64,000 nucleotides of DNA, from assembly GCA_014871385.1 (NCBI GenBank), contig CM026427.1, forward strand, positions 12,648,430 through 12,712,429. The letters run 5' to 3'. Positions within the stretch are counted from its first letter, which is position 1, and every line of letters begins with the position of its first letter. The DNA is from Ceratodon purpureus. Lineage: Eukaryota; Streptophyta; Bryopsida; Pseudoditrichales; Ditrichaceae. Below the pieces are notes generated by a model. The model saw nothing but the letters and a program-made list of their open reading frames with translations, was not told the origin of the DNA and made no database searches. Positions 15,065 to 50,300 of this stretch are shown here, in pieces. The translations under genes were made by a program, and so were the position numbers.

Positions 15065-15333
15065 CAGGAATGCTATCTTGTGAGCGGTGAGCAGTGAGCA
15101 GTGAGCGGTGAGCACTAAATTTTTAGTTTTTTGACTATTTATTTGATATTTTGAAATGATTTTGCGTGACATGGCATATATGGGACCTATGACCGTGGAA
15201 AGTGATTTAGGGTATATTCTTAAAAAAATGGCTTCTAAATTGATAAATGTAGAAATTTACACCCGATTCATACCCGAATAAATTGTGATTATTTTTTCAT
15301 ATTTCCTATCAATCCCAAGCCATGAAGACCAAG
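15065..15333. repeat. Left terminal region of element B
   Basis: It matches 1-270 inverted over its whole length. It begins with GCTATCTTGTGAGCGG and five 7-mers GTGAGCR, and contains the subterminal motif (inverse of CCACGGTCATAGGTCC) at 15183-15198. Confidence 0.75.
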
Positions 15334-15670
15334 AGGAAAAAAAAAAAATAAAGGAAAAAAAAAAAAGAGAAAAAAATAAATAAATGAAAGAAAGAAAAAA
15401 GATTAGAAATAAATAATGAAAAGGAGTATAGGGGAAAAAAATAAAAAAATGAAGGAAAATAAGAAGAAAAGAAAGAAATATAAATAAAACAACGAAAGAT
15501 AAAAAACAACGAATAAATAAAAAAAAATAAAAAAAATAAAAAATAAAACATAAAAAGGAATTAACTAAAAAAGAAAAAATAAATAAAAAATGAATGAATA
15601 CATATAGGAGAGAAAGAAGAAAGATAAAAAGAAAAAAATGAAAATTAGGTGAAGAACAGATATACACAAA
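15334..15670. repeat. Purine-rich low-complexity tract
   Basis: About 330 bp made almost only of A and G on the plus strand, with scattered T. Long phenylalanine-rich open frames on the other strand are a by-product of the composition. Confidence 0.8.
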
Positions 15671-16130
15671 GGCTATTGTAGATGAATGTCGCTTTTTCAT
15701 AAACTTTTCATCCAACTATTGGATGACTGATTTAAAGGTGCACAATTAATTAACTGAGAGTTAGGACTTAGGATTTGTGTTCGTAGGGGACCCCAAGTAA
15801 TTACTAGGGGTGCCCAAGTACCCCAAGTAATTACTAGGGGTATGTGCATAATAGGGTAGGGAAAAATAAATGAAAAAGGTTTTAAGAAGACCACATTATA
15901 TTCTGATACCTTCAAGTTGTAACCAAGGAATGTTCAACTTCTTAATAAATTAGTACCATCTTTATAATTCAATCATGTATGAAGTCAATTTAAAATATAT
16001 GGCCGGATTATTACATTCACAGAAAAGTAGAGTAAAGTGAGGTTAAGGAAAAATATAAAATCCAAAGCCAAAGCTATCATATAATATATAAGTAGTGAAA
16101 ACATAACAATATAGAGTAAATATGCAATGA

Positions 16131-18787
16131 TCAAGTAGACATCTCGTCATCGCTACAAGTACCAATCCAACCAGAGTAAGAATCGCTATCACTAGATAAT
16201 ACCACTCTGGCAACTTCTGCAGCTATGTCAAGATAAATCTCAGCATCACGACAAATGCTATCTCTGTCAGATGAAATAGATGGAGAAGGAGCAGCTACAT
16301 AAGCTTGAGCCTGCATTTCTGCATAATGTGGAAGCTCTAAAGGTCTAACTGGACTCCTTATCTTGCTAAGATGGCGCGAGATAATAGAGCCACCAATGTC
16401 ATTCTTCAACGCTTTCTTCCGACTGCATATAACAATTTGACAGATTAATAAATATTGAACTAAACTTTTTAAAAAAAAAAACAAATGTAAAATGAATGTA
16501 GAGACTTACTTACAAGAACGCTTGGGGGCAGTCTTCCTCTCAGGCTCATCATCTGACTCAATGGCTCGCTTCTTCTTCGGTGAAGGCACAGGAATTGGAG
16601 CAGACTCAACCTCTTCCGCGCTTGGAAGAAGAGGCAGCAACACTTGCTTGTACAAGGTGGTGTCATACTCAAAGCCTATGATATGGCGCCGGAGACTCTT
16701 CGATGCTCGAATGGAAGCACCTGAAGACAAATCAAAGCTCAATTGCATGAGATTAAAGAATAAAAAGAAATACAAAAAACAACAATCAGAAAACACAAAG
16801 AGTAAAAAATACCTGTAGAAGCTGTGAGATCCATCACAATGTTATTCTCTACAGTGCAGAGATCAATCAGAGCCTGCAAGAGGTTAGAAGTCTTCTCTCT
16901 AGGACCTCTGAATGGCAAACCTGTCTCTGAATTATAAGTCAGAGAATCTGCAGTTATCAAATTAGTACAGTGACCATCAGTAGAGAGCTTGATGCCTTGG
17001 GCACCAAGCTCAGCCCTATCATGAAACTGGAACTTAGACCTTGGAACACCCTCCTCCGCATTCTCCATCTTGATGAAGCACTTGACCATAAAAGTCTTGT
17101 GCTCTCGTGGATAACGGTCTGGAATAGTCAATGGGAGGCCATTGATTGCAAACCACTTGGCCTCCTCCTGAAAGTTAGCCCACTCTGCCGAGGAAATAAG
17201 CTCATTCGAAATGAACCTTGAATCAGGGTAGAATACAATCAAAGCTCCATCATCCTGCAGAAACTGCATAGCAAATTCAAAATGGGCCTTAATCCACGAA
17301 GACTCCATTTTCTTCCCTGCTGAAATCTTGGGGTGCTTGTTCCAGAATGGAATCTCACCATCCTGCCCTAAACCTGGAACTGGTAAATCCTCTGGAACAT
17401 CAAAAATGATGAGGTCCACAGCAGCCTCAGCCTCTTCACCTCCAAACTTCCTAGCCTTGCTACCGAGATTCTCCTTGATCCAGTCCTTCACCTTGATCCA
17501 AACCTCAGGCTCATCCCTCTCTGATAGATCATAAAACAGCTCCAAAATGCCCAGAGGGGAGTCATTGATGATCTCCACCCTAGTGTCTAACTCATCCAAC
17601 TGCGAGCATGGAATGGTGTAGATAGTCTGAGAAGGCATGGGGGTAGAAAAAAGAGGCACCTGAGGAGCTACAGGAACTATGGCAGCAGCCATGCTGCTAC
17701 CTGAAGGAGAAATGCCAACATGAGTCAACATCTTCTCTGGCCCTTCCTTCAAAACAAGCTTGGCAAGCTCCCTGTTCCTTGCTGCCAATTCTCTCTTGAG
17801 CTTGACTCCTTCTCCTTCTTCTTGTCCTCCTTCTCCTTCATCCTTGCCTCAGCCTTTGCCTTCCTCTCTGCTAGTTTCTTCCTTTGCTTCTCAGAAAGAG
17901 AAGCATCATCACCAACCTCCGAGGCATTCTCCTCCAAATTCATGGTATTCTCATCTCCAAGCTGCAGCACCAAATTGTCACAGCTAGCCTTCAAAGCTCT
18001 CTCATCCCCAGGACACTTCTCATTCTCCTTCAATTCAAGGTACCAGGGACATTGAACAAGATGTGGAGCTCGAAAATGCCTCCTCTGATAATCTGTAAAA
18101 ATGCACTCAGAGCTAGAAATATCCACCCATTTCTTAAAACGCTGTGGAATATCATTCCTATCAATGGCACCCTTAACTACCAACTCCCTCCAGAAGTACC
18201 TCAATATAACCCTCTTCATAGCATTCTCAGCCCCTGCTTGGTTGAGAAATGGCTCTTTCTTGGTAAAAGTACCAGCCTTAGGGAAGAAACCAGTGAAGGC
18301 CTTCCCCCAAAGAGTCAGAGAATGAGCCTCAATCCATGAGCCAATATCATCTACAGGATTGGGTAAATTCTCTGTCCTCAAAACTATGATATCCTCCTCT
18401 ACAATCTTGGCATAACGAAGGGCTGCCTCTTCTTCTAACTGCGGGATAAGAAACAAACCAAAATAATTAGAATCCATGACATCAGAAAGAACGTAGTTTT
18501 AATTTCAATTAGAACATTAGAAGACATAGATCAATTTAATTTATAAGAGAAATTATGATTGTGCTTACCCCAGCCCAGAATGCTGCTATATCAATCCAAA
18601 CTCGAAGAACTAAGTCTGAAGCTGGTGTTGGAGGAAAGTTGTACTCCACCCGACTCTGCTTGCTCATGTTCCACCACTTTAGCCATCTCTCTTTGTACTT
18701 GGGAGCAACCTTGGCGCTTGCAAAAAGTTGCAACTTCTCCGGTGTCATTTCTGCATCGCTCTGATAAACATCAAAGTGACGAATGAT
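16131..18787 (-). CDS. Class-beta DNA methyltransferase-like protein, exons with one frameshift
   Basis: Exons on the minus strand are 18787-18569, 18438-16813, 16720-16510 and 16422-16131, joined by good GT...AG sites. The frame shifts by one base near 17810, where an E/K-rich coiled coil is interrupted; repair would give about 780 residues. The C-terminal half has the order of a class-beta (N4/N6-type) DNA methyltransferase: IIFDVPED at the motif-IV place (about 17390-17425), then HFEFAMQFLQDDGALIVF, then DLTASTGASIRAS...RRHIIGFEYD at the motif-I/SAM place, split by an intron at 16813/16720. Motif IV lacks the usual DPPY and motif I lacks DPFxGSG, so catalysis is doubtful. The tail is basic (SPKKKR). 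The first exon starts at a splice acceptor in phase 0, so coding exons should lie upstream, possibly those at 42009-45414. The name rests on motif order alone. Confidence 0.6.
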
Positions 18788-19147
18788 CTGCAGAGAAGAA
18801 TACCGTTATGTGAGTCAGATAGACCCCTTTAACATAAAGACTCACAAAAACATAGTTTCTTTCAAATAAAAAAATGCAAGGTCATATCTATGAGCTTAAT
18901 CAAGTTTATAGCAGAAGTAGAACGTACACAACGCTAGTAGCCTTGCAATCAGCAGGAAAAAATAATCTGTGAGTGATATAGCCTCCATTAAAATGCAAAG
19001 AATAACAGAATTCAAAAGTGAAGAAGAACAGAACACAGAAACCACCCAAGGCTGCGTGCATCCAGCACGCAGCATCATAGAAAACAATACATTTAGATAA
19101 CACGCAGCATCATAGAAAACGAACCAATTAGATAACAAAAGCCCAAT
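18788..19147. other. Edge of the hairpin array, diverged
   Basis: A few diverged pieces of the array lie here, such as GCTGCGTGCATCCAGCACGC near 19052 and CACGCAGCATCATAGAAAAC twice (near 19064 and 19100). No coding exon is convincing. Confidence 0.5.
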
Positions 19148-22100
19148 GCTGCGTGCATGCAGCACGCAGCAGCAACCATTTCTCAAACGGCACTGACAAT
19201 CACAAGCAAACGAATTCACACGAGGAGAAAAAAAAAGGCTTCAAGCCCGGAGCTTGAGGCACTATCCAAAAAAAAGTGAGTTTCGGGACAGAGGTCTGGG
19301 CACCCCTCGGATCCGAGGGAGCCTCGAGGGGTGCTTACTTAAATCACTTTTTTTGATGTACCCCCCCCCAACTTGCACCCGGCATCACAGGCATCGACAC
19401 AATTACATGACTTTCGAGAGATGCACTGCGTGCTTAATGCACGCAGCTGCAGAGATGACGAACTCTGTTTAAAAAAAATCAACCAATGCTGCGTGCATGC
19501 AGCACGCAGCAGCAACCATACTCAGAGACCACCGACAAAGTGAAGCCAACGCTGCGTGCTGGGTGCACGCAGCTGCACACAAGATGAACTAGATTTCAAA
19601 AAAAAACACCAACGCTGCGTGCATGCAGCACGCAGCAGCAACCATTTCTCAAACGGCACTGACAATCACAAGCAAACGAATTCACACGAGGAGAAAAAAA
19701 AAGGCTTCAAGCCCGGAGCTTGAGGCACTATCCAAAAAAAAGTGAGTTTCGGGACAGAGGTCTGGGCACCCCTCGGATCCGAGGGAGCCTCGAGGGGTGC
19801 TTACTTAAATCACTTTTTTTGATGTACCCCCCCCCCAACTTGCACCCGGCATCACAGGCATCGACACGATTACATGACTTTCAAGAGATGCACTGCGTGC
19901 TTAATGCACGCAGCTGCAGAGATGACGAACTCTGTTTAAAAAAAATCAACCAATGCTGCGTGCATGCAGCACGCAGCAGCAACCATACTCAGAGACCATC
20001 GACAAAGTGAAGCCAACGCTGCGTGCTGGGTGCACGCAGCTTCACACAAGATGAACTAGATTTCAAAAAAAAACACCAACGCTGCGTGCATGCAGCACGC
20101 AGCAGCAACCATTTCTCAAACGGCACTGACAATCACAAGCAAACGAATTCACACGAGGAGAAAAAAAAAGGCTTCAAGCCCGGAGCTTGAGGCACTATCC
20201 AAAAAAAAGTGAGTTTCGGGACAGAGGTCTGGGCACCCCTCGGATCCGAGGGAGCCTCGAGGGGTGCTTACTTAAATCACTTTTTTTGATGTACCCCCCC
20301 CCAACTTGCACCCGGCATCACAGGCATCGACACGATTACATGACTTTCGAGAGATGCACTGCGTGCTTAATGCACGCAGCTGCAGAGATGACGAACTCTG
20401 TTTAAAAAAAATCAACCAATGCTGCGTGCATGCAGCACGCAGCAGCAACCATACTCAGAGACCATCGACAAAGTGAAGCCAACGCTGCGTGCTGGGTGCA
20501 CGCAGCTTCACACAAGATGAACTAGATTTCAAAAAAAAACACCAACGCTGCGTGCATGCAGCACGCAGCAGCAACCATTTCTCAAACGGCACTGACAATC
20601 ACAAGCAAACGAATTCACACGAGGAGAAAAAAAAAGGCTTCAAGCCCGGAGCTTGAGGCACTATCCAAAAAAAAGTGAGTTTCGGGACAGAGGTCTGGGC
20701 ACCCCTCGGATCCGAGGGAGCCTCGAGGGGTGCTTACTTAAATCACTTTTTTTGATGTACCCCCCCCCAACTTGCACCCGGCATCACAGGCATCGACACG
20801 ATTACATGACTTTCGAGAGATGCACTGCGTGCTTAATGCACGCAGCTGCAGAGATGACGAACTCTGTTTAAAAAAAATCAACCAATGCTGCGTGCATGCA
20901 GCACGCAGCAGCAACCATACTCAGAGACCACCGACAAAGTGAAGCCAACGCTGCGTGCTGGGTGCACGCAGCTGCACACAAGATGAACTAGATTTCAAAA
21001 AAAAACACCAACGCTGCGTGCATGCAGCACGCAGCAGCAACCATTTCTCAAACGGCACTGACAATCACAAGCAAACGAATTCACACGAGGAGAAAAAAAA
21101 AGGCTTCAAGCCCGGAGCTTGAGGCACTATCCATAAAAAAGTGAGTTTCGGGACAGAGGTCTGGGCACCCCTCGGATCCGAGGGAGCCTCGAGGGGTGCT
21201 TACTTAAATCACTTTTTTTGATGTACCCCCCCCCAACTTGCACCCGGCATCACAGGCATCGACACGATTACATGACTTTCAAGAGATGCACTGCGTGCTT
21301 AATGCACGCAGCTGCAGAGATGACGAACTCTGTTTAAAAAAAATCAACCAATGCTGCGTGCATGCAGCACGCAGCAGCAACCATACTCAGAGACCATCGA
21401 CAAAGTGAAGCCAACGCTGCGTGCTGGGTGCACGCAGCTTCACACAAGATGAACTAGATTTCAAAAAAAAACACCAACGCTGCGTGCATGCAGCACGCAG
21501 CAGCAACCATTTCTCAAACGGCACTGACAATCACAAGCAAACGAATTCACACGAGGAGAAAAAAAAAGGCTTCAAGCCCGGAGCTTGAGGCACTATCCAA
21601 AAAAAAGTGAGTTTCGGGACAGAGGTCTGGGCACCCCTCGGATCCGAGGGAGCCTCGAGGGGTGCTTACTTAAATCACTTTTTTTGATGTACCCCCCCCC
21701 AACTTGCACCCGGCATCACAGGCATCGACACGATTACATGACTTTCGAGAGATGCACTGCGTGCTTAATGCACGCAGCTGCAGAGATGACGAACTCTGTT
21801 TAAAAAAAATCAACCAATGCTGCGTGCATGCAGCACGCAGCAGCAACCATACTCAGAGACCACCGACAAAGTGAAGCCAACGCTGCGTGCTGGGTGCACG
21901 CAGCTGCACACAAGATGAACTAGATTTCAAAAAAAAACACCAACGCTGCGTGCATGCAGCACGCAGCAGCAACCATTTCTCAAACGGCACTGACAATCAC
22001 AAGCAAACGAATTCACACGAGGAGAAAAAAAAAGGCTTCAAGCCCGGAGCTTGAGGCACTATCCAAAAAAAAGTGAGTTTCGGGACAGAGGTCTGGGCAC

Positions 22101-25100
22101 CCCTCGGATCCGAGGGAGCCTCGAGGGGTGCTTACTTAAATCACTTTTTTTGATGTACCCCCCCCCAACTTGCACCCGGCATCACAGGCATCGACACGAT
22201 TACATGACTTTCAAGAGATGCACTGCGTGCTTAATGCACGCAGCTGCAGAGATGACGAACTCTGTTTAAAAAAAATCAACCAAGGCTGCGTGCATGCAGC
22301 ACGCAGCAGCAACCATACTCAGAGACCATCGACAAAGTGAAGCCAACGCTGCGTGCTGGGTGCACGCAGCTTCACACAAGATGAACTAGATTTCAAAAAA
22401 AACACCAACGCTGCGTGCATGCAGCACGCAGCAGCAACCATTTCTCAAACGGCACTGACAATCACAAGCAAACGAATTCACACGAGGAGAAAAAAAAAGG
22501 CTTCAAGCCCGGAGCTTGAGGCACTATCCAAAAAAAAGTGAGTTTCGGGACAGAGGTCTGGGCACCCCTCGGATCCGAGGGAGCCTCGAGGGGTGCTTAC
22601 TTAAATCACTTTTTTTGATGTACCCCCCCCCCAACTTGCACCCGGCATCACAGGCATCGACACGATTACATGACTTTCGAGAGATGCACTGCGTGCTTAA
22701 TGCACGCAGCTGCAGAGATGACGAACTCTGTTTAAAAAAAATCAACCAAGGCTGCGTGCATGCAACACGCAGCAGCAACCATACTCAGAGACCACCGACA
22801 AAGTGAAGCCAACGCTGCGTGCTGGGTGCACGCAGCTTCACACAAGATGAACTAGATTTCAAAAAAAAACACCAACGCTGCGTGCATGCAGCACGCAGCA
22901 GCAACCATTTCTCAAACGGCACTGACAATCACAAGCAAACGAATTCACACGAGGAGAAAAAAAAAGGCTTCAAGCCCGGAGCTTGAGGCACTATCCAAAA
23001 AAAAGTGAGTTTCGGGACAGAGGTCTGGGCACCCCTCGGATCCGAGGGAGCCTCGAGGGGTGCTTACTTAAATCACTTTTTTTGATGTACCCCCCCCCAA
23101 CTTGCACCCGGCATCACAGGCATCGACACGATTACATGACTTTCGAGAGATGCACTGCGTGCTTAATGCACGCAGCTGCAGAGATGACGAACTCTGTTTA
23201 AAAAAAATCAACCAATGCTGCGTGCATGCAGCACGCAGCAGCAACCATACTCAGAGACCACCGACAAAGTGAAGCCAACGCTGCGTGCTGGGTGCACGCA
23301 GCTGCACACAAGATGAACTAGATTTCAAAAAAAAACACCAACGCTGCGTGCATGCAGCACGCAGCAGCAACCATTTCTCAAACGGCACTGACAATCACAA
23401 GCAAACGAATTCACACGAGGAGAAAAAAAAAGGCTTCAAGCCCGGAGCTTGAGGCACTATCCAAAAAAAAGTGAGTTTCGGGACAGAGGTCTGGGCACCC
23501 CTCGGATCCGAGGGAGCCTCGAGGGGTGCTTACTTAAATCACTTTTTTTGATGTACCCCCCCCCAACTTGCACCCGGCATCACAGGCATCGACACGATTA
23601 CATGACTTTCGAGAGATGCACTGCGTGCTTAATGCACGCAGCTGCAGAGATGACGAACTCTGTTTAAAAAAAATCAACCAATGCTGCGTGCATGCAGCAC
23701 GCAGCAGCAACCATACTCAGAGACCATCGACAAAGTGAAGCCAACGCTGCGTGCTGGGTGCACGCAGCTTCACACAAGATGAACTAGATTTCAAAAAAAA
23801 ACACCAACGCTGCGTGCATGCAGCACGCAGCAGCAACCATTTCTCAAACGGCACTGACAATCACAAGCAAACGAATTCACACGAGGAGAAAAAAAAAGGC
23901 TTCAAGCCCGGAGCTTGAGGCACTATCCAAAAGAAAGTGAGTTTCGGGACAGAGGTCTGGGCACCCCTCGGATCCGAGGGAGCCTCGAGGGGTGCTTACT
24001 TAAATCACTTTTTTTGATGTACCCCCCCCCAACTTGCACCCGGCATCACAGGCATCGACACGATTACATGACTTTCGAGAGATGCACTGCGTGCTTAATG
24101 CACGCAGCTGCAGAGATGACGAACTCTGTTTAAAAAAAATCAACCAAGGCTGCGTGCATGCAACACGCAGCAGCAACCATACTCAGAGACCACCGACAAA
24201 GTGAAGCCAACGCTGCGTGCTGGGTGCACGCAGCTTCACACAAGATGAACTAGATTTCAAAAAAAAACACCAACGCTGCGTGCATGCAGCACGCAGCAGC
24301 AACCATTTCTCAAACGGCACTGACAATCACAAGCAAACGAATTCACACGAGGAGAAAAAAAAAGGCTTCAAGCCCGGAGCTTGAGGCACTATCCAAAAAA
24401 AAGTGAGTTTCGGGACAGAGGTCTGGGCACCCCTCGGATCCGAGGGAGCCTCGAGGGGTGCTTACTTAAATCACTTTTTTTGATGTACCCCCCCCCAACT
24501 TGCACCCGGCATCACAGGCATCGACACGATTACATGACTTTCGAGAGATGCACTGCGTGCTTAATGCACGCAGCTGCAGAGATGACGAACTCTGTTTAAA
24601 AAAAATCAACCAATGCTGCGTGCATGCAGCACGCAGCAGCAACCATACTCAGAGACCACCGACAAAGTGAAGCCAACGCTGCGTGCTGGGTGCACGCAGC
24701 TTCACACAAGATGAACTAGATTTCAAAAAAAAACACCAACGCTGCGTGCATGCAGCACGCAGCAGCAACCATTTCTCAAACGGCACTGACAATCACAAGC
24801 AAACGAATTCACACGAGGAGAAAAAAAAAGGCTTCAAGCCCGGAGCTTCAGGCACTATCCAAAAAAAAGTGAGTTTCGGGACAGAGGTCTGGGCACCCCT
24901 CGGATCCGAGGGAGCCTCGAGGGGTGCTTACTTAAATCACTTTTTTTGATGTACCCCCCCCCCAACTTGCACCCGGCATCACAGGCATCGACACGATTAC
25001 ATGACTTTCGAGAGATGCACTGCGTGCTTAATGCACGCAGCTGCAGAGATGACGAACTCTGTTTAAAAAAAATCAACCAATGCTGCGTGCATGCAGCACG

Positions 25101-28100
25101 CAGCAGCAACCATACTCAGAGACCATCGACAAAGTGAAGCCAACGCTGCGTGCTGGGTGCACGCAGCTTCACACAAGATGAACTAGATTTCAAAAAAAAA
25201 CACCAACGTTGCGTGCATGCAGCACGCAGCAGCAACCATTTCTCAAACGGCACTGACAATCACAAGCAAACGAATTCACACGAGGAGAAAAAAAAAGGCT
25301 TCAAGCCCGGAGCTTGAGGCACTATCCAAAAAAAAGTGAGTTTCGGGACAGAGGTCTGGGCACCCCTCGGATCCGAGGGAGCCTCGAGGGGTGCTTACTT
25401 AAATCACTTTTTTTGATGTACCCCCCCCCAACTTGCACCCGGCATCACAGGCATCGACACGATTACATGACTTTCGAGAGATGCATTGCGTGCTTAATGC
25501 ACGCAGCTGCAGAGATGACGAACTCTGTTTAAAAAAAATCAACCAATGCTGCGTGCATGCAGCACGCAGCAGCAACCATACTCAGAGACCATCGACAAAG
25601 TGAAGCCAACGCTGCGTGCTGGGTGCACGCAGCTTCACACAAGATGAACTAGATTTCAAAAAAAAACACCAACGCTGCGTGCATGCAGCACGCAGCAGCA
25701 ACCATTTCTCAAACGGCACTGACAATCACAAGCAAACGAATTCACACGAGGAGAAAAAAAAAGGCTTCAAGCCCGGAGCTTGAGGCACTATCCAAAAAAA
25801 AGTGAGTTTTGGGACAGAGGTCTGGGCACCCCTCGGATCCGAGGGAGCCTCGAGGGGTGCTTACTTAAATCACTTTTTTTGATGTACCCCCCCCCAACTT
25901 GCACCCGGCATCACAGGCATCGACACGATTACATGACTTTCGAGAGATGCACTGCGTGCTTAATGCACGCAGCTGCAGAGATGACGAACTCTGTTTAAAA
26001 AAAATCAACCAAGGCTGCGTGCATGCAACACGCAGCAGCAACCATACTCAGAGACCACCGACAAAGTGAAGCCAACGCTGCGTGCTGGGTGCACGCAGCT
26101 TCACACAAGATGAACTAGATTTCAAAAAAAAACACCAACGCTGCGTGCATGCAGCACGCAGCAGCAACCATTTCTCAAACGGCACTGACAATCACAAGCA
26201 AACGAATTCACACGAGGAGAAAAAAAAAGGCTTCAAGCCCGGAGCTTCAGGCACTATCCAAAAAAAAGTGAGTTTCGGGACAGAGGTCTGGGCACCCCTC
26301 GGATCCGAGGGAGCCTCGAGGGGTGCTTACTTAAATCACTTTTTTTGATGTACCCCCCCCCCCAACTTGCACCCGGCATCACAGGCATCGACACGATTAC
26401 ATGACTTTCGAGAGATGCACTGCGTGCTTAATGCACGCAGCTGCAGAGATGACGAACTCTGTTTAAAAAAAATCAACCAATGGTGCGTGCATGCAGCACG
26501 CAGCAGCAACCATACTCAGAGACCATCGACAAAGTGAAGCCAACGCTGCGTGCTGGGTGCACGCAGCTTCACACAAGATGAACTAGATTTCAAAAAAAAA
26601 CACCAACGCTGCGTGCATGCAGCACGCAGCAGCAACCATTTCTCAAACGGCACTGACAATCACAAGCAAACGAATTCACACGAGGAGAAAAAAAAAGGCT
26701 TCAAGCCCGGAGCTTGAGGCACTATCCAAAAAAAAGTGAGTTTTGGGACAGAGGTCTGGGCACCCCTCGGATCCGAGGGAGCCTCGAGGGGTGCTTACTT
26801 AAATCACTTTTTTTGATGTACCCCCCCCCAACTTGCACCCGGCATCACAGGCATCGACACGATTACATGACTTTCGAGAGATGCACTGCGTGCTTAATGC
26901 ACGCAGCTGCAGAGATGACGAACTCTGTTTAAAAGAAATCAACCAAGGCTGCGTGCATGCAACACGCAGCAGCAACCATACTCAGAGACCACCGACAAAG
27001 TGAAGCCAACGCTGCGTGCTGGGTGCACGCAGCTTCACACAAGATGAACTAGATTTCAAAAAAAAACACCAACGCTGCGTGCATGCAGCACGCAGCAGCA
27101 ACCATTTCTCAAACGGCACTGACAATCACAAGCAAACGAATTCACACGAGGAGAAAAAAAAAGGCTTCAAGCCCGGAGCTTCAGGCACTATCCAAAAAAA
27201 AGTGAGTTTCGGGACAGAGGTCTGGGCACCCCTCGGATCCGAGGGAGCCTCGAGGGGTGCTTACTTAAATCACTTTTTTTGATGTACCCCCCCCCCAACT
27301 TGCACCCGGCATCACAGGCATCGACACGATTACATGACTTTCGAGAGATGCACTGCGTGCTTAATGCACGCAGCTGCAGAGATGACGAACTCTGTTTAAA
27401 AAAAATCAACCAATGGTGCGTGCATGCAGCACGCAGCAGCAACCATACTCAGAGACCATCGACAAAGTGAAGCCAACGCTGCGTGCTGGGTGCACGCAGC
27501 TTCACACAAGATGAACTAGATTTCAAAAAAAAACACCAACGCTGCGTGCATGCAGCACGCAGCAGCAACCATTTCTCAAACGGCACTGACAATCACAAGC
27601 AAACGAATTCACACGAGGAGAAAAAAAAAGGCTTCAAGCCCGGAGCTTGAGGCACTATCCAAAAAAAAGTGAGTTTCGGGACAGAGGTCTGGGCACCCCT
27701 CGGATCCGAGGGAGCCTCGAGGGGTGCTTACTTAAATCACTTTTTTTGATGTACCCCCCCCCAACTTGCACCCGGCATCACAGGCATCGACACGATTACA
27801 TGACTTTCGAGAGATGCACTGCGTGCTTAATGCACGCAGCTGCAGAGATGACGAACTCTGTTTAAAAAAAATCAACCAAGGCTGCGTGCATGCAACACGC
27901 AGCAGCAACCATACTCAGAGACCACCGACAAAGTGAAGCCAACGCTGCGTGCTGGGTGCACGCAGCTTCACACAAGATGAACTAGATTTCAAAAAAAAAC
28001 ACCAACGCTGCGTGCATGCAGCACGCAGCAGCAACCATTTCTCAAACGGCACTGACAATCACAAGCAAACGAATTCACACGAGGAGAAAAAAAAAGGCTT

Positions 28101-28963
28101 CAAGCCCGGAGCTTCAGGCACTATCCAAAAAAAAGTGAGTTTCGGGACAGAGGTCTGGGCACCCCTCGGATCCGAGGGAGCCTCGAGGGGTGCTTACTTA
28201 AATCACTTTTTTTGATGTACCCCCCCCCCCAACTTGCACCCGGCATCACAGGCATCGACACGATTACATGACTTTCGAGAGATGCACTGCGTGCTTAATG
28301 CACGCAGCTGCAGAGATGACGAACTCTGTTTAAAAAAAATCAACCAATGGTGCGTGCATGCAGCACGCAGCAGCAACCATACTCAGAGACCATCGACAAA
28401 GTGAAGCCAACGCTGCGTGCTGGGTGCACGCAGCTTCACACAAGATGAACTAGATTTCAAAAAAAAACACCAACGCTGCGTGCATGCAGCACGCAGCAGC
28501 AACCATTTCTCAAACGGCACTGACAATCACAAGCAAACGAATTCACACGAGGAGAAAAAAAAAGGCTTCAAGCCCGGAGCTTCAGGCACTATCCAAAAAA
28601 AAGTGAGTTTCGGGACAGAGGTCTGGGCACCCCTCGGATCCGAGGGAGCCTCGAGGGGTGCTTACTTAAATCACTTTTTTTGATGTACCCCCCCCCAACT
28701 TGCACCCGGCATCACAGGCATCGACACGATTACATGACTTTCGAGAGATGCACTGCGTGCTTAATGCACGCAGCTGCAGAGATGACGAACTCTGTTTAAA
28801 AAAAATCAACCAAGGCTGCGTGCATGCAACACGCAGCAGCAACCATACTCAGAGACCACCGACAAAGTGAAGCCAACGCTGCGTGCTGGGTGCACGCAGC
28901 TTCACACAAGATGAACTAGATTTCAAAAAAAAACACCAACGCTGCGTGCATGCAGCACGCAGC
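19148..28963. repeat. Tandem array of 466-bp units, about 21 full units
   Basis: Units start about every 466 bp from 19148 and differ by a few bases. Each has four short hairpins with arms GCTGCGTGC and GCACGCAGC (or near variants: one has loop TTAA, one GGGT, two ATGCA), a palindrome CCCTCGGATCCGAGGG inside a longer inverted repeat GCACCCCTCG...CGAGGGGTGC, outer arms CAAAAAAAAGTGA...TCACTTTTTTTG, and a run of 8-10 C. The 22nd unit is cut by the Gypsy insertion and resumes at 41439. Variants alternate near 25780-28580, giving 933-bp dimers. Short open frames of 72, 84 and 88 codons recur in every unit because of the repetition and have no sign of being genes. Confidence 0.97.
28959..28963. 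repeat. Target-site duplication GCAGC, left
   Basis: GCAGC directly before the left LTR, repeated at 41439-41443 directly after the right LTR. In uninterrupted array units this place reads GCACGCAGCAGCAACC with a single copy. Confidence 0.95.
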
Positions 28964-39400: not shown

Positions 39401-40816
39401 CCCCCTGATAGCACCCCAGCCGTTGTTGGCTCTGTTCTACGCGCTCAAACTAGTGGCGATGCACTTGCAGCGACCATCACCGATTCAGTAGACCCGCAGC
39501 CGACCACACCTATTTCGACCCGCTCCCATGAAGGCTCCTCCGATGTTGGTCGGCCACGGAAGCGATTGCGCCCACTCTGTCAGCAGGCTACGCCGGTGGA
39601 ACTGCCCCCTATACCACGCACATTATCCTCCCCTGATGCTGCGGCGACAGGCGTATCACCCTCCTGCCGATACCCCCTGCGATCTCGCACACCACTCACT
39701 CGGTACGCAGCCCCTTCCTCTGACTCAGAACTTCCGTTCACAGCCGGCAGAGCCCTTGCTCCACCAAGGCAACCCCCAGTTGTGGTTTGCAGCTCGTCCG
39801 ACGAGTCCTCCGCCTCGGACGAACCGGACCAGCCTCCTCCCGAGCCCATCCGTTCGCCGGATCACCTCAATACGGCACTGCCTTCCGAAGACCAAGAGCT
39901 TGATAGTACCACGTTGCCGACTGGCGCGGGTAGACTTTCCTCCAGCATGGACATCATTGTTTGGCGGCCTCAACCGTGTTTTACCTGGTTTACACAGCCG
40001 ACTTCAACCCCGACAGTGACCGCCACTCCCACCGCCGAACCGTCGTCGTCAAGACCACAGTCACAAGCATCACGTCCGACCCCTCCTCCGCAACGACCGC
40101 CCTCGCCGGCACCGCCATCACATCAACCTGGCCGACACAACTCCACTGGCTCTTCAGGTGGTCCGCCTGACGACTCCGCTGATGGTCTTGGAGCTAGCCT
40201 GAATACGACTTCCGACTTCAGCATCCTCCTGAACAACCTGAACGCGTTGGCCACGGTCCTCGTTCGGACACGTACTGCGGCTCGCCAGCTAGAAGCCACC
40301 AGGCAGACCACAGCTACCCGCGCCACTGAGCTCGCCTCTGAGATTGCGACGCTCAACTCCCAGGTCGCCGACATTACTGCTCGCCTGCAATCTACAGAGG
40401 CCATCCGTGATCACCTAACCAAGGAGAACCTCGAGCTTAGGCATACGGTCCAGACTCTTCAGACCGAGCTAGTCGCCAAGCCACAACCTCCAGCCCAGCC
40501 GTTACCTTCGATTCGGCGCCTTGAACTTGAGCACAGCCTCAATGCTCGCCTACTCCAGACTGATAATCTTATTTTGGAGAACCAGCGCCTCAAGACAGAG
40601 TTGGCAACTCTCACCCTTCAGCCTCGAGAGCTTAGCAGAGCTGTCCGTGATTATGCTGTTACTAAACAGCAGGACATCGCTGCTGCCTTGATTGCTCACA
40701 GCGCCGACTTCGCCCGACAGCAGCGCTGGCTAACTCGATTTGAAGATCGTGACCCTACGTTTGAGCCTTGGCTGGAGGATGAGGAGCCCACCTGCGCAGC
40801 ACCGACTTCGCCATAG
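30425..40816 (+). CDS. Gypsy gag-pol polyprotein with long C-terminal extension (3,463 aa)
   Basis: One open frame without stops. Order with rough residues: gag (510-650); two zinc knuckles CX2CX4HX4C (near 702 and 772, [16 protein letters not shown] and [15 protein letters not shown]); protease LLDGGSG (1048); reverse transcriptase with [12 protein letters not shown] (1410) and FLDDFTVYS (1511); RNase H HTDASD (1656); integrase with an H/C zinc site (1863-1915) and a D, D(35)E core (GLDFVGP about 1933, SDQGTHF 1995, GQAE 2030). After integrase come about 1,200 further residues: a Pro/Ser-rich stretch, a folded-looking region at 2725-2960 ([27 protein letters not shown]) that recalls the putative plant transposon protein domain (Pfam PF20167), and a C-terminal coiled coil at about 3265-3400. 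The extension is at the env position but has no signal peptide or membrane segment. The start is the first ATG after the leader. Confidence 0.93.
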
Positions 40817-41001
40817 CCGACTACTTGAAGACTGTCGGCCGCGACCTGTTTTTTATTTTTCTTCTCCTTAGTTCGATTTGCTTAGTCTTTTTCTTTTCCA
40901 TTTTTATTTTTGTAGGCCTTTTTCATTTTTCCTACACCGAGGTCGTGTTTTCTTATTCCCTTTTTTCCCATTGCCCCTACGTTCTGAGGACAGAACTACC
41001 G

Positions 41002-41015
41002 GAAAAAGGGGATAA
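41002..41015 (+). promoter_or_regulatory. Polypurine tract of the retrotransposon
   Basis: GAAAAAGGGGATAA abuts the 3' LTR, as expected for the primer of plus-strand synthesis. The same 13-mer occurs also at 29864, 30168 and 30668. Confidence 0.85.
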
Positions 41016-41438
41016 TGTTAACCGGAGATTTCTCAATCTTCCCTCTCTCAGTTTCAGTAGCCTTTTTCGCAGTTTTTCATCCCTGGCTCCGACAGTCATC
41101 CAGTCGGCTGGATGAACTCTGTCATAGCCGACTGGATGAACTCTGTCGTAGCCGACTGGATGTTTTCTGCTAGGTTCTTAAGGCAAGTTTTAGGGTTTCT
41201 TGGATCATTCCTCACTAGTGCACTCAGAGTTAGGAGAGACTGAGGAGTCTTTATGAGCTACTGTACCATGATTTTGGGGCAGATTTGACCCTCTTTATAC
41301 AGTTTTGACTCACTTTTCCACTCCTTTTGAGTGTTTCCTGCATTGTATGAGTGTTTCAGCACTATTGCTAGTTGGGTTTTTGTAGGGTTTTGATGGGTTG
41401 TGAAGGTTAGGGTTTTATGGGAAATCCTCCCTTTACCA
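41016..41438 (+). repeat. 3' LTR (423 bp)
   Basis: Identical to 28964-29386 by eye, TGTTAACCGG to CCCTTTACCA, followed by the target repeat GCAGC at 41439-41443. Confidence 0.95.
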
Positions 41439-41740
41439 GCAGCAGCAACCATTTCTCAAACGGCACTGACAATCACAAGCAAACGAATTCACACGAGGAG
41501 AAAAAAAAAGGCTTCAAGCCCGGAGCTTCAGGCACTATCCAAAAAAAAGTGAGTTTCGGGACAGAGGTCTGGGCACCCCTCGGATCCGAGGGAGCCTCGA
41601 GGGGTGCTTACTTAAATCACTTTTTTTGATGTACCCCCCCCCCCACTTGCACCCGGCATCACAGGCATCGACACGATTACATGACTTTCGAGAGATGCAC
41701 TGCGTGCTTAATGCACGTAGCTGCACGCAGCTGGAGGGAA
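41439..41740. repeat. Remainder of the last 466-bp unit
   Basis: Continues the array after the Gypsy element. It matches the other units up to the hairpin near 41700-41735 and then becomes diverged (GTAGCTGCACGCAGCTGGAGGG). Two isolated hairpins of the same type follow, the last being GGCTGCGTGCATTTTGCACGC near 41890 (start of the arm at 41891). Confidence 0.9.
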
Positions 41741-42008
41741 GATGAATGCGATTTAAAAAAAAACCACCAATGTGGTACCCTAGCTGCGTGCATCCAGCAC
41801 GGAGCATGTCGCAATCAAACAATGAGCATAAGGACGATAACTAAGAAGGAGCTCACAAATTAACAAGGAGCACGCAGAATCACGCCAAAGGCTGCGTGCA
41901 TTTTGCACGCAGCATCAAAAACATTAGAAAGCAGCAAAAAAAACAATCAGGAATAAAGAAATAAAATAGGAGCCTTGTGATAGTGTTTGGAAATATACAT
42001 ACCTCCTT

Positions 42009-45000
42009 TCAGAAACCGTCGCCATTAGCTGGGTTGGCAATGGCCAAGTACCGGTCCAGTTTAGTAGAGAGGGATGTCTTCTTTGCCGCCACTGCCTTCT
42101 TCGCAACGGCAAGGAGCTCTGATGGACTTCCCATCTTGTCCTCTCCGCGACCTGTGATTAATGAGTCCCTGTAGATTCTGATAGCTTCCTCTTGGGCGGC
42201 TGATATTTCTCTCTAAAATACATTAATTACTTGTTAGTATATAGGCTTTGACAATAGATGAGATCAGTACTGATAAATATTTTACAACTTAAATCCATTA
42301 AACATTCTTACCTCGTATAAGAAGTCAATGAATGCATCATATAAAAGATGATACCACTTCCTGTTCTTCATACGCCCCCACTCTATTATGCTTGCTTGCA
42401 AATCTTCATCTTTCACCAGACCCTTCAACTGGTCAAAATCCAACAGACCTAGCTGTTGGACCCGCTTAACCTCATGGGTCCAATGCTGAACAACATGGTC
42501 TACTTCATTTTTTCTACAAGAAGTTCACAGACAATCCATAAAATTTCAGTATCAATCAATTGTAAATTAAAAAGTGGGACAAATTCAAAACTTTCATATA
42601 CTTGAGTCACTAATGAGATTAAACTTAATGAATTACTTACTTGTTCCAATCTGTCATGGCGTGCAACAACATATTGCAATTTGCCGGCGTGACGTTGATG
42701 ATGATTGAACGGGCTGAAACATGGAAAGAAGCATCATGCCTGTGGAGAGAATTGATCAATTCTGACCAAGCAATATGGCGATGATTCCCGTCCCATACAT
42801 AGAAGTAGCGATTGGAGTATTTCTTCAAGTCTGGATTTGACAGCAACCGTGCTTCAAACTCAAGGTCCTCCTTGCGCCATAAATCGGACCAGGAAGACCT
42901 GTCAGCCTCGGTGACACTTGACTCTTCCATCCTAAAGCTCTTCAGTGATAGATAAAAGCACGATGAACCTCGCTTGTATCCGTGGCTGAATTCGGCCTTT
43001 AGCTTCTGTATGTCGGTCTTCAATGGCTCCCTCACATCCGACATAGGTATCATCCTGCACAATGGCACATCAATCTCCATGCCTGGTATGTCAACTGCAT
43101 CTTGGAGAGCAACATGTGAACTTCCCTTCACAGCCTTGCGGAGCTGATCTTCCATTTCGGTAAGACCGACGTCGATACAGTCCATGGCTGCAGATGGGCT
43201 GCGCACCTCTTCCATGCCCTGGTCACAGCTCATCTGCAGTTAGCAACAATAAAAACATGTTAGCCCACAGCGATCGACTTGCACATGTTGATCAATCAAT
43301 TTGCTACGAAATCCTAATTAGGGTCATCAACATCAAAATGCTGCCGGAATTAATAACCTAGGCAACCCTCAAAACTTAGCATTCACAATACGAAGCAGAC
43401 TGTTACCCTGTGGGAGTATCGAACTATAGATGGCAAATTTTCGACTTCACAGGAGTGGTATTCCTCCACGTTCTCGAATTCCTCAATACGCTGCCTTGAA
43501 GTATCAGCGAATTCGGTCACCTGCGAGCAGTACCACCCAAACAAGAGTTTAGTTCAGAAATTCTCTCGGATGAGCTCGGCATTGTACTGTAGTCGATAAC
43601 ATCTCAATTCAATGAGGAAGCGGTCCGCGCATGCGTCAGTCGTACTCACTATGCTCTCTAATATATTGAGGCATGGTTAATTGTGACTTCGCAGACACTG
43701 AACCCAAGAGAACACCTGCGCTCATCCTTCGACTAGGAAATCAGTAGCACTACTTGTTCTTGATCGGATTATTACAATTTAGCTCTATACCCAGAGGATT
43801 TGCTCGTCATTTTAGAACAGAGCAGGCAGACGATTAACTATGAGGAGGGAGTGTCGATTGCGAGGCAGGCTTGCAAACAAGAGCAGGGCGAAAGGATACT
43901 GCCGGCATCGCAAAACGTCACGAAGCCGTCTCCGGAAGTCGAAGCAGAAGAGATTAGGCGGACGGTACATTGAAGATTTCCTAGCCAGCGACAACGTAGT
44001 TGTAGTTTCGAAACACGAATTTCAGGGAGAATACTTTGCATTCATCAAAGTTCAGAACCGAAAGTTACAAAAGTACAAATGTCTTGCGAGGTACACTTAG
44101 TTGTTTGGCCGAAAGAATTGTTATTTACAACATATGAAATCCGGTGTTACAGAACTACACAATGTTTCAATGAATGTGACAACGGAGACAGTCTCCTACA
44201 CTGCAAGCTTAGAAACCTAAAACTATCAACTACTGTGAGCTGTTCAAATGCACCTCCACCATGTACACTAATTGAAATGCAGAATTCCCACTGGATTCTC
44301 TACACAGAAAATAGTTCAATTCAAAATGTATCTCGGATGAGCTCGGCATCGTACTGTACTTGATAACATGTGAATTCACAGAATCTGAATTTTCTCAAAT
44401 GAACTGAACGAGAATTGGAGAAGAAAAGCAGACTTACCAACTGTTCTGTTTCGTGGACCTCCGATGCGCACGCAGCTGGCAGTACCGAGCTCACTTCACT
44501 TAGCTCTTGTAAATCCCACCTTTCCTTACCTTGAATTCCACCGCAAGGAATCAACTGCAACAAAACCGAAGACCCTACGCCACTGAGACTGCTATCCTAG
44601 GGTTTCGGCCGGTAAGATTAAGATGAACATCAGTAGAATGTTCGAATGGAAACATGGTCATTGCTTTGTGGAATGAAAACTAATGATGGGTTTAGGGTCA
44701 GAGAACTATACCTGCGACGGATTGCTCACTGTTGCAAGTGGAATCGAGAAGCATGCCCTCGGTGGTTCACCTGCCTCGCAAGGGAAGTCGTCTCCAGTGC
44801 TGCCTACTGCGGTGACCTGCATGAGGCCCGTGCTCACGTCGTGAGAGTGAATGGGATAACAGGTATGACTTGAGATTCATCCGGAATCTTTCATCCTTGA
44901 ATGAGTTCAATGTAGCCTTCACGGCATAACCGAAAAACGATCCCAAAGTACTTAAGAGTACGATAATATCAATAAGTGCGTCCATTCAGTAATAAATTTC

Positions 45001-45414
45001 CTCTTAGATTCTGTGAATGCATAGTGTGCTTTTTGACAAAGAAGTGTGTATTTGACTCTCAATGTCCCTGATTATTAGAGTAAAGAAACAAAATTATACC
45101 TAAATACATTAAACAAAATCATGCATTATTTGAAATTACGTTCAGTTAGTGATTTACAGAAAACAAAAAACATGATTTGGTATTATTACCTGGGTTATGG
45201 TTGCCAATGCTTTGATTTTCAAGTGCTTGGGATCATCCGAATCGTAATCCACTTCTGCAATACGGTCAAGAGCCTCCTTCTCCTTCCGTCTCTTCTGAGC
45301 GGCCACCTGCTTCGGATTAGTAAAACCTGAACCTCGCTTTCTCCCTCTACCTCTACTCGTACATGATCTAGGAGCCCTCGGCACTCTTGAACTTGGCTCT
45401 TCGTCTTCCCTCAT
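42009..45414 (-). CDS. ParB-like domain protein (6 exons), possibly the 5' part of the methyltransferase gene
   Basis: Exons on the minus strand are 45414-45190, 44554-44438, 43520-43407, 43233-42641, 42513-42312 and 42212-42009, all with GT...AG sites in matching phase, giving 484 residues up to a TGA at 42009-42011. The ATG at 45414 follows a TATA box. The N-terminus is basic and AT-hook-like (RGRGRKRGSG). Residues about 205-340 resemble a ParB/sulfiredoxin-type domain: IDVPLCRMIPMSDV, a helix with DIQKLKAEFSHGYKRG, then VWDGNHRHIAW at 298-308, with the DGNHR signature. Such domains bind DNA or act as nucleotide-dependent nucleases or CTPases; the role here is unknown. Just past the TGA, in the same frame, a perfect donor (GAG/GTATGT, exon edge 42003) would join in phase to the exon at 18787, so the stop may be a mutation in a longer gene. 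No function is asserted beyond the motif. Confidence 0.6.
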
Positions 45415-45491
45415 AGGTCTCAATAACGCTATCCCGTGCACATATTTCTAACTAAGAAGAATGTTTTGGATTCGAGAAGAGCTCACTCCAG

Positions 45492-46043: not shown

Positions 46044-46050
46044 TATATAA
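46044..46050 (+). promoter_or_regulatory. TATA box of the SWIM transposase gene
   Basis: TATATAA (AACTATATAACC) 51 bp before the first ATG at 46101; transcription would begin near 46075. Confidence 0.5.
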
Positions 46051-46100
46051 CCTCTACAACGAGGTACACAACACACACAACTTCTCACAGTCCTTTTGCA

Positions 46101-49100
46101 ATGCATGATTGTACTTCTTCTATCTTCTACAGTATGCTTAGAATGGCCTCCCTACGATCTCATGATGGAGGTATTCCATTTGTGATGTCTGTGGGATCAG
46201 ACAATAAGGTAGTTGTTGAGGAGCGATTGCTTAGCCTCAGGTTTGGATTTAGAGCCGGGACTATTTACGTGGAAGAAGAGGTTTTTGATGATAATGGAGA
46301 GATCCGTGAGTGTATATTTCAAGTGAAGGATAGTACTGAAGATGGTTACATCTGGACTCTTAGCACTGGAATGTTCAAGGTCTATGGATTATCATATGCA
46401 CAGATGTCTGAGTCTACTGTTCTCTTGACCCCTCCCCCTTCCACTTCAACTGTTCAAGTTCCTGGTCTAGCATCTGTCAAAATTGAACCCAGTGACAACT
46501 CTGTACATTTGTTGAGTGACTCAGACGATGACAGTCAAAGTGAGATCAAGCTAGGAGACACTAGATCAAATCCATTCCAGAGTCGTGGATCCGGAGAGTC
46601 AGATCGTCCATCTCGACAGGGTAGTCATTCTAGCATGTCTGCATCATTGTCTTCAGGGCGTCCACCTATTCATCCTGCTTCGAAGAAAAATAGAAGCATT
46701 CTCTTTGCCATCAGAATGACAGCGTCAAGAAGGGGCTCCCGATCAGAATTATCGCAGATTGATTTTGACACCATTGAACATGAACAAGTGAAGTATTTAC
46801 CGCCAGTTTACGATGGAGACAAGATCTTTGAGCTGCCCCCCTTACCCGAAGGCGTTCCAACTCCATTCGGAGGTGGCATGGATGGGATGAGCAAGCAGTA
46901 TGATGGCCATACCTGGTGCAAGACCATGACCACAAACATCAAGAACGAGTATGGCCTTACATATCGTAAGTCTACCTGTACTGGACACTTGCAATGTCCC
47001 AACCTGAGTTGTGATTACATCTGCAGGAATAATGGGATGGTAAATAGCACTGAATGGTCAGGTGTAGCTTTAGTACCATTTCCTGTGGGAGGCGCTCCCA
47101 CAGAAAAATCTACATTAGCATGCAAGGTATGCCAGACAGCTCCTATTTGTCTAGAATTGTGTAACGCTAGGATCTATCATGTGTCAGCATTACACAATGA
47201 TATGACCCGTGCGGCCATTCATTTAGGACGTCATAAACATCCTGTATCTCAAGGCAGGTGTCAAGATTCTATGGACATCATGTTTGACTGCATAGCTAAA
47301 GAGGTTCAGAAGACACCTAACGCCAAGAACTCTGCTATCGTATTAGCAGCCAGCAAGCAGTACCTTGCTGATGCTCTGATCCGTCCTACAGCCGGAGGCA
47401 GTCATCTTCGGGGGGCATCTATGGATGCTGTAATGGACCAATTTGAGAATCTTACTTCACCGAATATACGCAATTTTGTTTCTGGATCGAAGAGGTTTTT
47501 CCGGCAAGGGAGAGGAGTGACAGACAGCATCCTGGAGCTGAAGGATTACTCCAACTTTGATTTCATCCACCGTAATCAATTCCCTGGACAGAATGAAGGC
47601 AAGGTTTTTCTGTTCAAGATGTCCACTGATCGTCCAGGAAGCGGTGTGGATCTGGTGAAGCGCATGCAGCCTGGAGGTGATCTTCAAGACTGCTAGATCA
47701 TGTTCGACCACGTTAGGCGCGTAGCTGACTGGACCACTATGGCATGCCACGTTTATGACAGTAAGTATTGTAAAGTTATGACAATTGCCCTTTGTGACAT
47801 GCAATCCGAAGATGCTGCTGCTCAGGAGTTATTTTGGCTCCAACTCAATGAAGTTATGCGCAAAAACGGCCTTGAAAATACGAATTTCAAACGATTCATG
47901 GCTGACAATGCTGGAGCCAACTGGCACGCTGTTCGGAAGGTGTATGGGAACGGAGACCCCAATGTTCCTATGGAAGAACGGGAGCGCACTTGTCTTTTCC
48001 ACTGGACAAAGTGCCTTCAGAGGGCTACTTCCCGGAATATCTTGCCAAGCTTTCAAGACCAACACAAAGCATTGTGCAAAGTATGGAAGGACGCGAAGAC
48101 CCAGGAGGAAGCAGAAGCGCAGTACAACGTCATCCGCGGGTGGTGGCTTTCGTCAGGCGCTACAACTGAAGAAGGAAGGCGTCATCTAAACGATTGGATG
48201 GTTTTCTGGCACTATCGGTACAGACAATGGGGAGGCTCGATGCAGCTTGTAAGTTCATTCATCTCTAAACCTTCCGACAATTTGTAGTAGTATACCTTGC
48301 AATTTATCTTTTATCCTGAAAATGACATTATTTATTTTATTGTATTTCCCAGGATCTTACCCTTGACGAGAGAGCCGACATGCCTTCCTGCAACCTTGCG
48401 GAAACCGTGCATAACAGATGGCTTCAACAATCAGGAAATACAATGACCTGTTTGTACGAGGCAACAGTGGATGATATGATCCGAGCATTCATGCAGATCA
48501 CAAGTTACCGGTCTTGGCTGAAGGGGGGAAAGGGCGGTAAAGGTCCGGATAGAGCAGAACTTCGTTTACGCCACGCTCAACGCTCTGGTGACCCCAAGTT
48601 GATTGCTGAGGCAGTGAATTCGTACCCGGGAGCCGAGGATTTACTGACAAAGAAAGGAGGCTTGGAAGGTGCAGAGATCTTTGGATCTACGAAACGGAAG
48701 TTAGAATTGCCGCCTGGTTCGAGTCATGACTCACATCGCTATGATACAGTGAATTATTCCATTCCTCGGGATGGCACGAGATCCACTAGAGCACGCATTG
48801 AGGAGGCTCTTTCTCAACCTGACTCCGGTGTTGAACACACTACTTCAGTGCAGGAGACTGGTTGCGACCCGTCTAAGTGGCACATTGCCAGACTGTCCGG
48901 CAAGTCTAACAGAAAATGCCAAGCAATGCAGGCTCATACGAATGAGAAGTGCGATACCCGAGTGCGCCGAGGTACGCATGGTACGCCTGCTCCTACCTAT
49001 GTAGGGCTGAAGAAGGAGTTCAGAACCGATCGCAAGATTTCTACTGACTTTTGGTTTTGCGCCGATGACATTAATAGATGTGTGAAGGGCACAAAGAAGT

Positions 49101-49723
49101 CGTTTGTGATCGATTGGCCATCTATCCCGCAGACTTGGCCTGTGAAAATGGGCACCAACTTGACCATCAAAGAGATTTTGGCTCTTGAAGAGGCCGGCTT
49201 CCAACTTCAACAACGTGGAGTACTATCACCTCGTCGTCAGTTCCAAGTTTTTGCTAATATGCCGCTTCCAAGGAGTCATTTCCCGGTTCCTGTTAATCCG
49301 GATACACACCCGACGACTCGAAACGGGTATGCCATCAGGAGAAGTTCTGACGCTCCTACCTCCGACCACCGCAACAAGTGGAGCAGCGCGGGTCTCATGA
49401 ACAACTATTGGATTACAAATGTCACATCGATTCCATATCCAGGATTTGGCTGCGTTATCTCCTTGAAAAGTCCAAGTGAAACGATATATTGTATCACCAT
49501 CACGGACTTCCCTGGATGTACTTGCCCCGACTTCATGAAAATGACTTCGGAAACCCTTGGCAAAAGAGGACAGTGGAAGTACTGCAAACATGTTTATTAT
49601 ATCTTCCGCTATCTATGTGAGATGGATTACAAGGTTGATACTTTTATGCACGCCCCTAGCTTCAGCTTCAACGAAGTTATGCGTGTTCTGGAGATGGCCA
49701 AAGTTGCTGAACCGCTTCAGTAG
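46101..49723 (+). CDS. SWIM zinc-finger transposase with one in-frame stop (2 exons)
   Basis: Exons 46101-48248 and 48353-49723 join in phase 0 (CTT/GTAAGT...CCCAG/GAT). A TAG at 47694-47696 interrupts the frame; without it the product has about 1,172 residues. The start is the first ATG after the TATA box; the open frame continues 171 bp upstream without an ATG. Seen in order: an N-terminal acidic/serine region; a Cys/His cluster from about residue 290 (CTGHLQCPNLSC, later CKVCQ, CLELC and RHKHPV), like the zinc part of MULE- or KDZ-type transposases; a candidate DDE-type core with YDSKY (about 550), MADNAGANW (600) and TCLFHW (630); and a SWIM finger near the end, CTCPDF (1104) and KYCKHVYY (1124). 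The acidic residues of the catalytic core were not assigned with certainty. The decayed homologue is at 8908-10272. Confidence 0.8.
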
Positions 49724-49931
49724 TTTCTTATGGTTAGACTGTGAAATTAAGTGACCAATACAGTTCAAGGATACATTATATGAATAGCGGAATTGATTTG
49801 TTTTGGCTTTGTGATGGATTTGGAATCCGCAGAACATAAATAAAGGTCACTATTTATTTTTATATTGTCCACCTCTCCAATGTGTTTGTGGTAAAATGAA
49901 AGCAAAAAAAAAAAAATCTTCCAATGCTAGG
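49724..49931. other. 3' flank of the transposase
   Basis: AT-rich, with an A-run near 49903; it ends at the 36-bp palindrome. No gene. Confidence 0.4.
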
Positions 49932-49967
49932 GAATATTCTTCTCTCGGATCCGAGAGAAGAATATTC
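49932..49967. repeat. Perfect 36-bp palindrome with GGATCC centre
   Basis: The two 18-base halves (GAATATTCTTCTCTCGGA and its exact complement) are centred on CTCGGATCCGAG. A broken third arm (AAATATTCTTCTCTCATATC) follows at 49981-50000. The same core ends the relic element C and occurs in every 466-bp unit. It is 209 bp after the transposase stop and about 330 bp from the transposon end. Confidence 0.9.
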
Positions 49968-50219
49968 TTTCATACCTTGGAAATATTCTTCTCTCATATC
50001 AGCGTCCACAGAAATGCAATAAAAAAAATTAAAAAAAAGATTGGATATACATTCTGTATGTGACTTAAACAGTAAGATTTTCCCTCCAACCATTCACATT
50101 TGATTGATTCCACGGTTATAGGGTCTACTTTATTTGCATTCATATATTCCAACGAAGTGTCCTAAATTGCTCATCATTGTTTGATTGTTCTCCAAAAAAT
50201 TCAAAAAAAAAAAAAAAAA

Positions 50220-50300
50220 ATCAAATTTTTACCTGAGAATTTGAAAATTTAGTGCTCACCGCTCACTGCTCACCGCTCACCGCTCACAAGATAGCGTCGC
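50220..50300. repeat. Right terminus of element B
   Basis: AATTTGAAAATTTAGTGC followed by CTCACCG/CTCACTG 7-mers and CACAAGATAGCGTCGC; inverse of the first 55 bp or so of the left end. The subterminal motif CCACGGTTATAGGGTCT lies at 50110-50126. Confidence 0.75.

Follow-up and report, generated by a model that had tools for sequence, protein, structure and literature searches.

A likely Mutator-like transposon of Ceratodon purpureus with a ParB-/methyltransferase-like fusion gene and palindromic arrays

Related systems and the moss element

In Arabidopsis, binding of VANC to arrayed motifs leads to a loss of DNA methylation across the VANDAL element (PMC5735166, part of the text). A locus of comparable layout is described here for the moss Ceratodon purpureus: a DNA transposon of about 35 kb with inverted ends (15065-50302), situated in a window of 64,000 nucleotides (contig CM026427.1, positions 12,648,430 to 12,712,429), which is the whole stretch of DNA that was analysed. 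VANDAL elements are DNA transposons in which short motifs form tandem arrays outside the coding sequence, among other places in the introns of an accessory gene (PMC5735166, same part). The layout here is alike, as the array of the moss element is found between exons 7 and 8 of a predicted gene for a ParB-/methyltransferase-like fusion protein. The VANC21 motif YAGTATTAY is non-palindromic, whereas the motifs of the moss element are palindromes, and an anti-silencing function would be a proposal by analogy. VANDAL elements are Mutator-like, and ParB or methyltransferase folds are not known from VANC. With moderate confidence we regard the element as a transposon, likely Mutator-like, whose predicted fusion protein of ParB and adenine-methyltransferase fold likely binds the element's own palindromes. 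If this is true, self-recognition of an element and its escape from silencing, for which VANC is one answer, would have been solved independently a second time, and a prokaryotic conflict-type fusion would be at work in a eukaryotic transposon. The short candidate target site allows direct testing in vitro.

Three further groups of described systems resemble single aspects of the locus. DIRS1-type retroposons carry an inactive N6-adenine methylase domain and are thus, like the moss transposon, eukaryotic mobile elements that keep an apparently inactive adenine methylase; they are, however, retroelements with a tyrosine recombinase and not DNA transposons (PMC3537659, part of the text). Bacterial and phage ParB-methylase fusions, such as Bce_0392 of Bacillus cereus, combine a ParB-like domain with an adenine methylase as is the case here, and one bacterial representative has nicking activity (PMC5512222, part of the text). 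These fusions are prokaryotic, whereas the moss gene contains introns, is part of a eukaryotic transposon and has an altered motif IV. ParB systems with parS and a cytidine triphosphate (CTP) switch are characterized by a GERR-type CTP motif, instead of which DGNHR is present here, and DIRS1 elements are not known to possess a ParB domain or the inverted ends of DNA transposons. Among fungal DNA transposons, KDZ (Kyakuja-Dileera-Zisupton) elements carry TET/JBP and hence likewise a gene of the DNA-modification type, but their cargo is a dioxygenase and 8-bp target repeats are reported for Zisupton and a Dileera family, compared to the ParB-methyltransferase-like fusion and 10-12 bp of the moss element (PMC12730594, part of the text). 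Among the papers listed by literature searches, no title or abstract start described a DNA transposon in which ParB and methyltransferase are fused, with subscription journals and Repbase Reports outside the coverage.

Element ends, transposase and fusion gene

The left terminal region (15065-15331, plus strand) contains five GTGAGC(G/A) heptamers and an inverted repeat over 15065-15152, which is complementary to the right terminal inverted repeat (50215-50302, minus strand) at 82% over 88 nt; within it, positions 15072-15123 match at 98% over 52 nt. Both flanks carry the perfect target-site repeat GACCACAAAA (15055-15064 and 50303-50312). The original prediction, made from the letters of this DNA, had reported inverted ends, which were recovered, and a flanking repeat of 12 bp, which has to be shortened to 10 bp because the right-hand TG is the element's own end (12 bp result if the terminal TG is included). 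The same transposon family is represented by a second end, located in inverted orientation at 1-267 with 94% identity to the left end over 268 nt, which belongs to an element extending past the window edge. The family therefore has more than one copy here, one of which is fully covered. Since the outermost CAGGAATGC of this second end is common with the element tip and the DNA beyond differs, the position of the terminus is fixed.

The transposase gene (46143-49723, plus strand; exons 46143-48248 and 48353-49723) lies at the right end, and the SWIM transposase predicted for this place was confirmed by a SWIM-type CxC...CxH in exon 2, near the C end. With the first exon as query 105 homologs were found, 39 of which were aligned and scanned with Pfam. 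Two Asp residues, 66 residues apart, are conserved in all rows with a letter (37/37 and 36/36), CxxH is present in 36/36 rows and NLAE in exon 2 of the window provides a candidate Glu. Mutator-like DDE transposases have CxxH after the second Asp, and target repeats of Mutator-like elements measure about 8-11 bp; both the D...D...CxxH layout and the 10-bp target repeat are found here. Based on the Asp pair with CxxH, NLAE, the SWIM-type motif and the length of the target repeat, the transposon is likely Mutator-like. In the Pfam scan of the 39 homologs the Mutator model PF00872 appeared in two of them below the cut-off (E 0.034 and 0.18, residues 552-694), and PF10551 was not among the 18 families listed.

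The comparison with KDZ-type transposons drawn in the original prediction found no support, and membership in this group was set aside. Zisupton and a Dileera family have 8-bp target repeats (PMC12730594, part of the text) as opposed to 10-12 bp here, the transposase layout fits the Mutator-like type, and no KDZ Pfam transposase model matched the 39 homologs at E <= 5 or the spliced transposase of the window at E <= 10. The Lanisha superfamily was also rejected, as the same source groups it with CACTA-like lineages with target repeats of 2-5 bp.

The fusion gene occupies the minus strand from 45414 to 16131 and comprises 11 predicted exons with GT/AG splice sites, matching phases and one reading frame. 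Its 5' half (42003-45414) consists of exons 1-4 (45414-45190, 44816-44712, 44554-44438, 43520-43407) and exons 5-7 (43233-42641, 42513-42312, 42212-42003) and includes the ParB/Srx-fold domain, while exons 8-11 of the 3' half (16131-18787; 18787-18569, 18438-16813, 16720-16510, 16422-16131) contain the methyltransferase-like domain. Motifs of both kinds are indeed present on this strand, as had been stated before, but the assumption of two separate genes was rejected. Contig L003, a 4.7-kb sequence of another genome from a cyanobacterial metagenome bin, carries both halves joined as one gene (ParB-half exons at 648-1814, methyltransferase-half exons at 1907-4523) with the introns in place: introns 5/6 to 10/11, including the one between the halves, agree with the window in position and phase in all six comparable cases. 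Moreover, the stretch from the last stop up to exon 8 contains no ATG in the window, and the first Met of the 3' half falls inside this exon. On account of the introns and the likeness to the moss gene, the cyanobacterial label of L003 is most likely a binning error, and the contig looks like eukaryotic contamination. Exons 1-4 of the window are not matched in L003. Among annotated proteins of Ceratodon purpureus, P0115 tracks much of exons 2-6, with 95% identity to the ParB exon.

With exons 7 and 8 joined in one gene, both the tandem array and a retrotransposon inserted into it are located in intron 7, the largest of the predicted introns. Together with the ends and the flanking repeat, this nesting supports the earlier notion that transposase, ParB/methyltransferase cargo and array form a single mobile unit. 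The copy in the window is broken, with one stop in each of the two genes and one frameshift. The transposase has an in-frame TAG at 47694-47696, where Trp is found in 36 of the 39 aligned homologs; in the fusion gene, the third-last codon of exon 7 is an in-frame TGA (TTC in L003) and exon 9 contains the frameshift at about 17806. The stops and the frameshift could partly be assembly errors, and the copy presumably needs the help of other copies, unless it is dead altogether.

For the ParB-like half a ParB/Srx fold was predicted with a pLDDT (predicted local distance difference test) of 74-96 in blocks 141-300, and ParB, Noc and KorB occupy the top 11 VIA rows for this model. A (D/G)GxHR-type motif forms the active site of the ParB/sulfiredoxin fold; the corresponding DGNHR is present in 18 of 24 homologs, with variants in four and the stretch absent in two. 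Model and motif thus suggest a ParB/sulfiredoxin fold with an active site of this type. The Pfam ParB family matched none of 24 sequences (the 23 aligned homologs out of 24, with P0138 left out, and the window exon), P0137 gave a weak ParB-like match in PHROGs (E 0.21), the only one, and the ParB exon was without match in NCBIfam and in plasmids; in phages it weakly resembles an internal virion protein of T7-like type (E 0.5). Searches of PDB sequences with three alignments yielded chance-like matches only. A viral origin of the close relatives was rejected, since neither the transposase nor the ParB domain has a relative among viral contigs.

The methyltransferase-like half matches PF01555 with 36.1 bits (cut-off 26.7), and its predicted fold is that of a beta-class DNA amino-methyltransferase (N6-adenine/N4-cytosine); CcrM of NCBIfam was found below the cut-off (E 0.0027). 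The catalytic motif IV of the beta class ends in an aromatic residue, (D/S/N)PP(Y/F/W). In the window and in all nine homologs, each of which was aligned, the motif reads D(V/I)PE, compared to D(V/I)PY in two aligned phage enzymes. Motif I is DLTASTG instead of DPCAGSG. Because Glu replaces the catalytic aromatic residue throughout, this half may not methylate and, judging from its residues, more likely binds DNA and cofactor.

Palindromes and the candidate role of the fusion protein

The tandem array (19143-28963) comprises 21.1 units of 466 bp, which are 98% alike; its remnant to the right of the retrotransposon reaches up to the last palindromic site (41439-41913). About 22 hairpin-rich units had been proposed, and apart from this slightly higher count both the array and its strong folding were found: the folding of one unit surpasses that of all 100 shuffled versions (z -7.8 as DNA, -5.6 as minus-strand RNA). 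Each unit contains about four GCTGCGTGC-N5-GCACGCAGC sites and one CCCTCGGATCCGAGGG palindrome. In a scan with up to two mismatches per arm, 89 GCTGCGTGC-N5-GCACGCAGC sites were detected, 85 in the array, three in the remnant, one just left of the array and none outside the element. The spacer has a constant length of 5 nt with varying letters (ATGCA, TGGGT, TTAAT, ATCCA, ATTTT); if spacers of up to 40 nt are allowed, two further sites appear, with a spacer of 21 nt.

Of the 24 copies of the 12-mer CTCGGATCCGAG in the window, 22 belong to array and remnant, one is found at 49944 and the last at 10602 within an older relic, in which the 10-bp core of the palindrome is also found at 8513. The copy at 49944 belongs to a perfect palindrome of 36 bp centred on TCTCGGATCCGAGA (49932-49967), 209 bp past the stop of the transposase gene. 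The longest perfect palindromes of both the window and L003 are centred on CTCGGATCCGAG. Positions 1-400 of L003, directly 5' of the first recognised exon of the fusion gene, contain four palindromic units in tandem, each about 107 bp long, and CTCGGATCCGAG is present in three of them with perfect palindromes of 30, 14 and 30 bp. A 30-bp palindrome was reached in none of 100 Markov samples of L003 (maximum 18), and when the 41,070 bases outside the array were shuffled 100 times with dinucleotides preserved, the mean count of CTCGGATCCGAG was 0.0, compared to two real copies. As a plain count, GC-bearing palindromes of at least 16 bp outside the array amount to only two, with 0.48 expected. The arms around the core differ among the places and vary in length, while self-complementarity is kept. 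This is the trace that would be expected from a conserved symmetric recognition site and, alike, from a hairpin with a conserved tip.

The cargo had been proposed to modify or bind the repeat DNA. Binding gained indirect support from the core common to the array, the transposase-side site, the relic and L003, while modification became less likely through the exchange in motif IV. The fusion protein may recognise the palindromes as a dimer and could then coat or open the element, by which host silencing would be relieved or the element be marked for transposition, in analogy to VANC on the motif arrays of VANDAL. A more far-reaching version is doubtful: a phage-derived ParB-pseudomethyltransferase that would load at the CTCGGATCCGAG palindromes and the GCTGCGTGC-N5-GCACGCAGC arrays, spread and shield the element from silencing in cis and in trans, as a plant ParB/parS-like system.

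It is unlikely that the palindromes are binding or processing sites of the transposase and that the fusion gene serves an unrelated purpose, for instance DNA nicking in transposition. The palindrome at 49932 does follow the transposase gene, the one at 10602 lies 3' of a transposase relic in an older element in which neither ParB nor methyltransferase was matched at E 1e-4, and the nicking activity of a bacterial ParB-methylase is on record (PMC5512222, part of the text). In L003, however, the palindromes precede the fusion gene, and the 4.7 kb of this contig yielded nothing better than E 0.23 for a transposase; in the window the array resides in the intron of the fusion gene and not at the element ends.

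We consider it improbable that the fusion protein is an active modifier which methylates adenine (or N4-cytosine) in the element and so marks self or stimulates transposition. Its methyltransferase half matches phage DNA methyltransferase annotations (in a listing of 15 of the 53 matched records, phiRM10 gp48 with E 6e-4 and SMO_1P with E 4e-4), the fold is of the beta class, the Asp of motif IV is kept and GATC is contained in the shared palindrome core. These points are opposed by Glu at the end of motif IV in the window and all homologs, by the deviating motif I and by the lack of GATC enrichment, as the array contains 21 GATC with 23.4 expected. Plant DNA often contains tandem arrays and the 98% likeness of the units is expected from recent homogenisation, but an ordinary satellite, grown by unequal exchange in a large intron and read by no protein, is an equally improbable explanation. 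Against it speak the symmetric arms, which are preserved around a spacer of fixed length but changing letters, and the palindrome core, further copies of which lie beyond the array as well as in a second genome.

Nested and neighbouring elements

The retrotransposon in intron 7 (28964-41438, plus strand) had been overlooked in the earlier reading of the stretch. It carries long terminal repeats (LTRs) at 28964-29386 and 41016-41438 and is flanked by the target repeat GCAGC; behind it, at 41439, the array unit resumes. As the LTRs are identical (423/423 nt), the insertion is very young. Of the 35 kb, 12.5 kb belong to the retrotransposon, so that the original transposon measured about 22.8 kb. 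Its open reading frame (30425-40816) encodes a single polyprotein of 3463 amino acids, Ty3-type by eye, the C-terminal third of which appears proline/serine-rich.

The older relic mentioned above extends over 6111-14625. Its outer segments (6111-6274 and 14470-14625) are inverted with 71% identity, and a decayed transposase exon 2, 49% identical, is found at 8908-10254. Finally, the window contains an inverted pair of 2.5 kb (2805-5339 and 55468-58002), 50 kb apart, with 99.5% identity over 2538 nt. The flanks of the two copies differ and clear transposon ends were not seen at their borders; the pair encodes an open reading frame of 228 amino acids, which is cupin/germin-like by eye.

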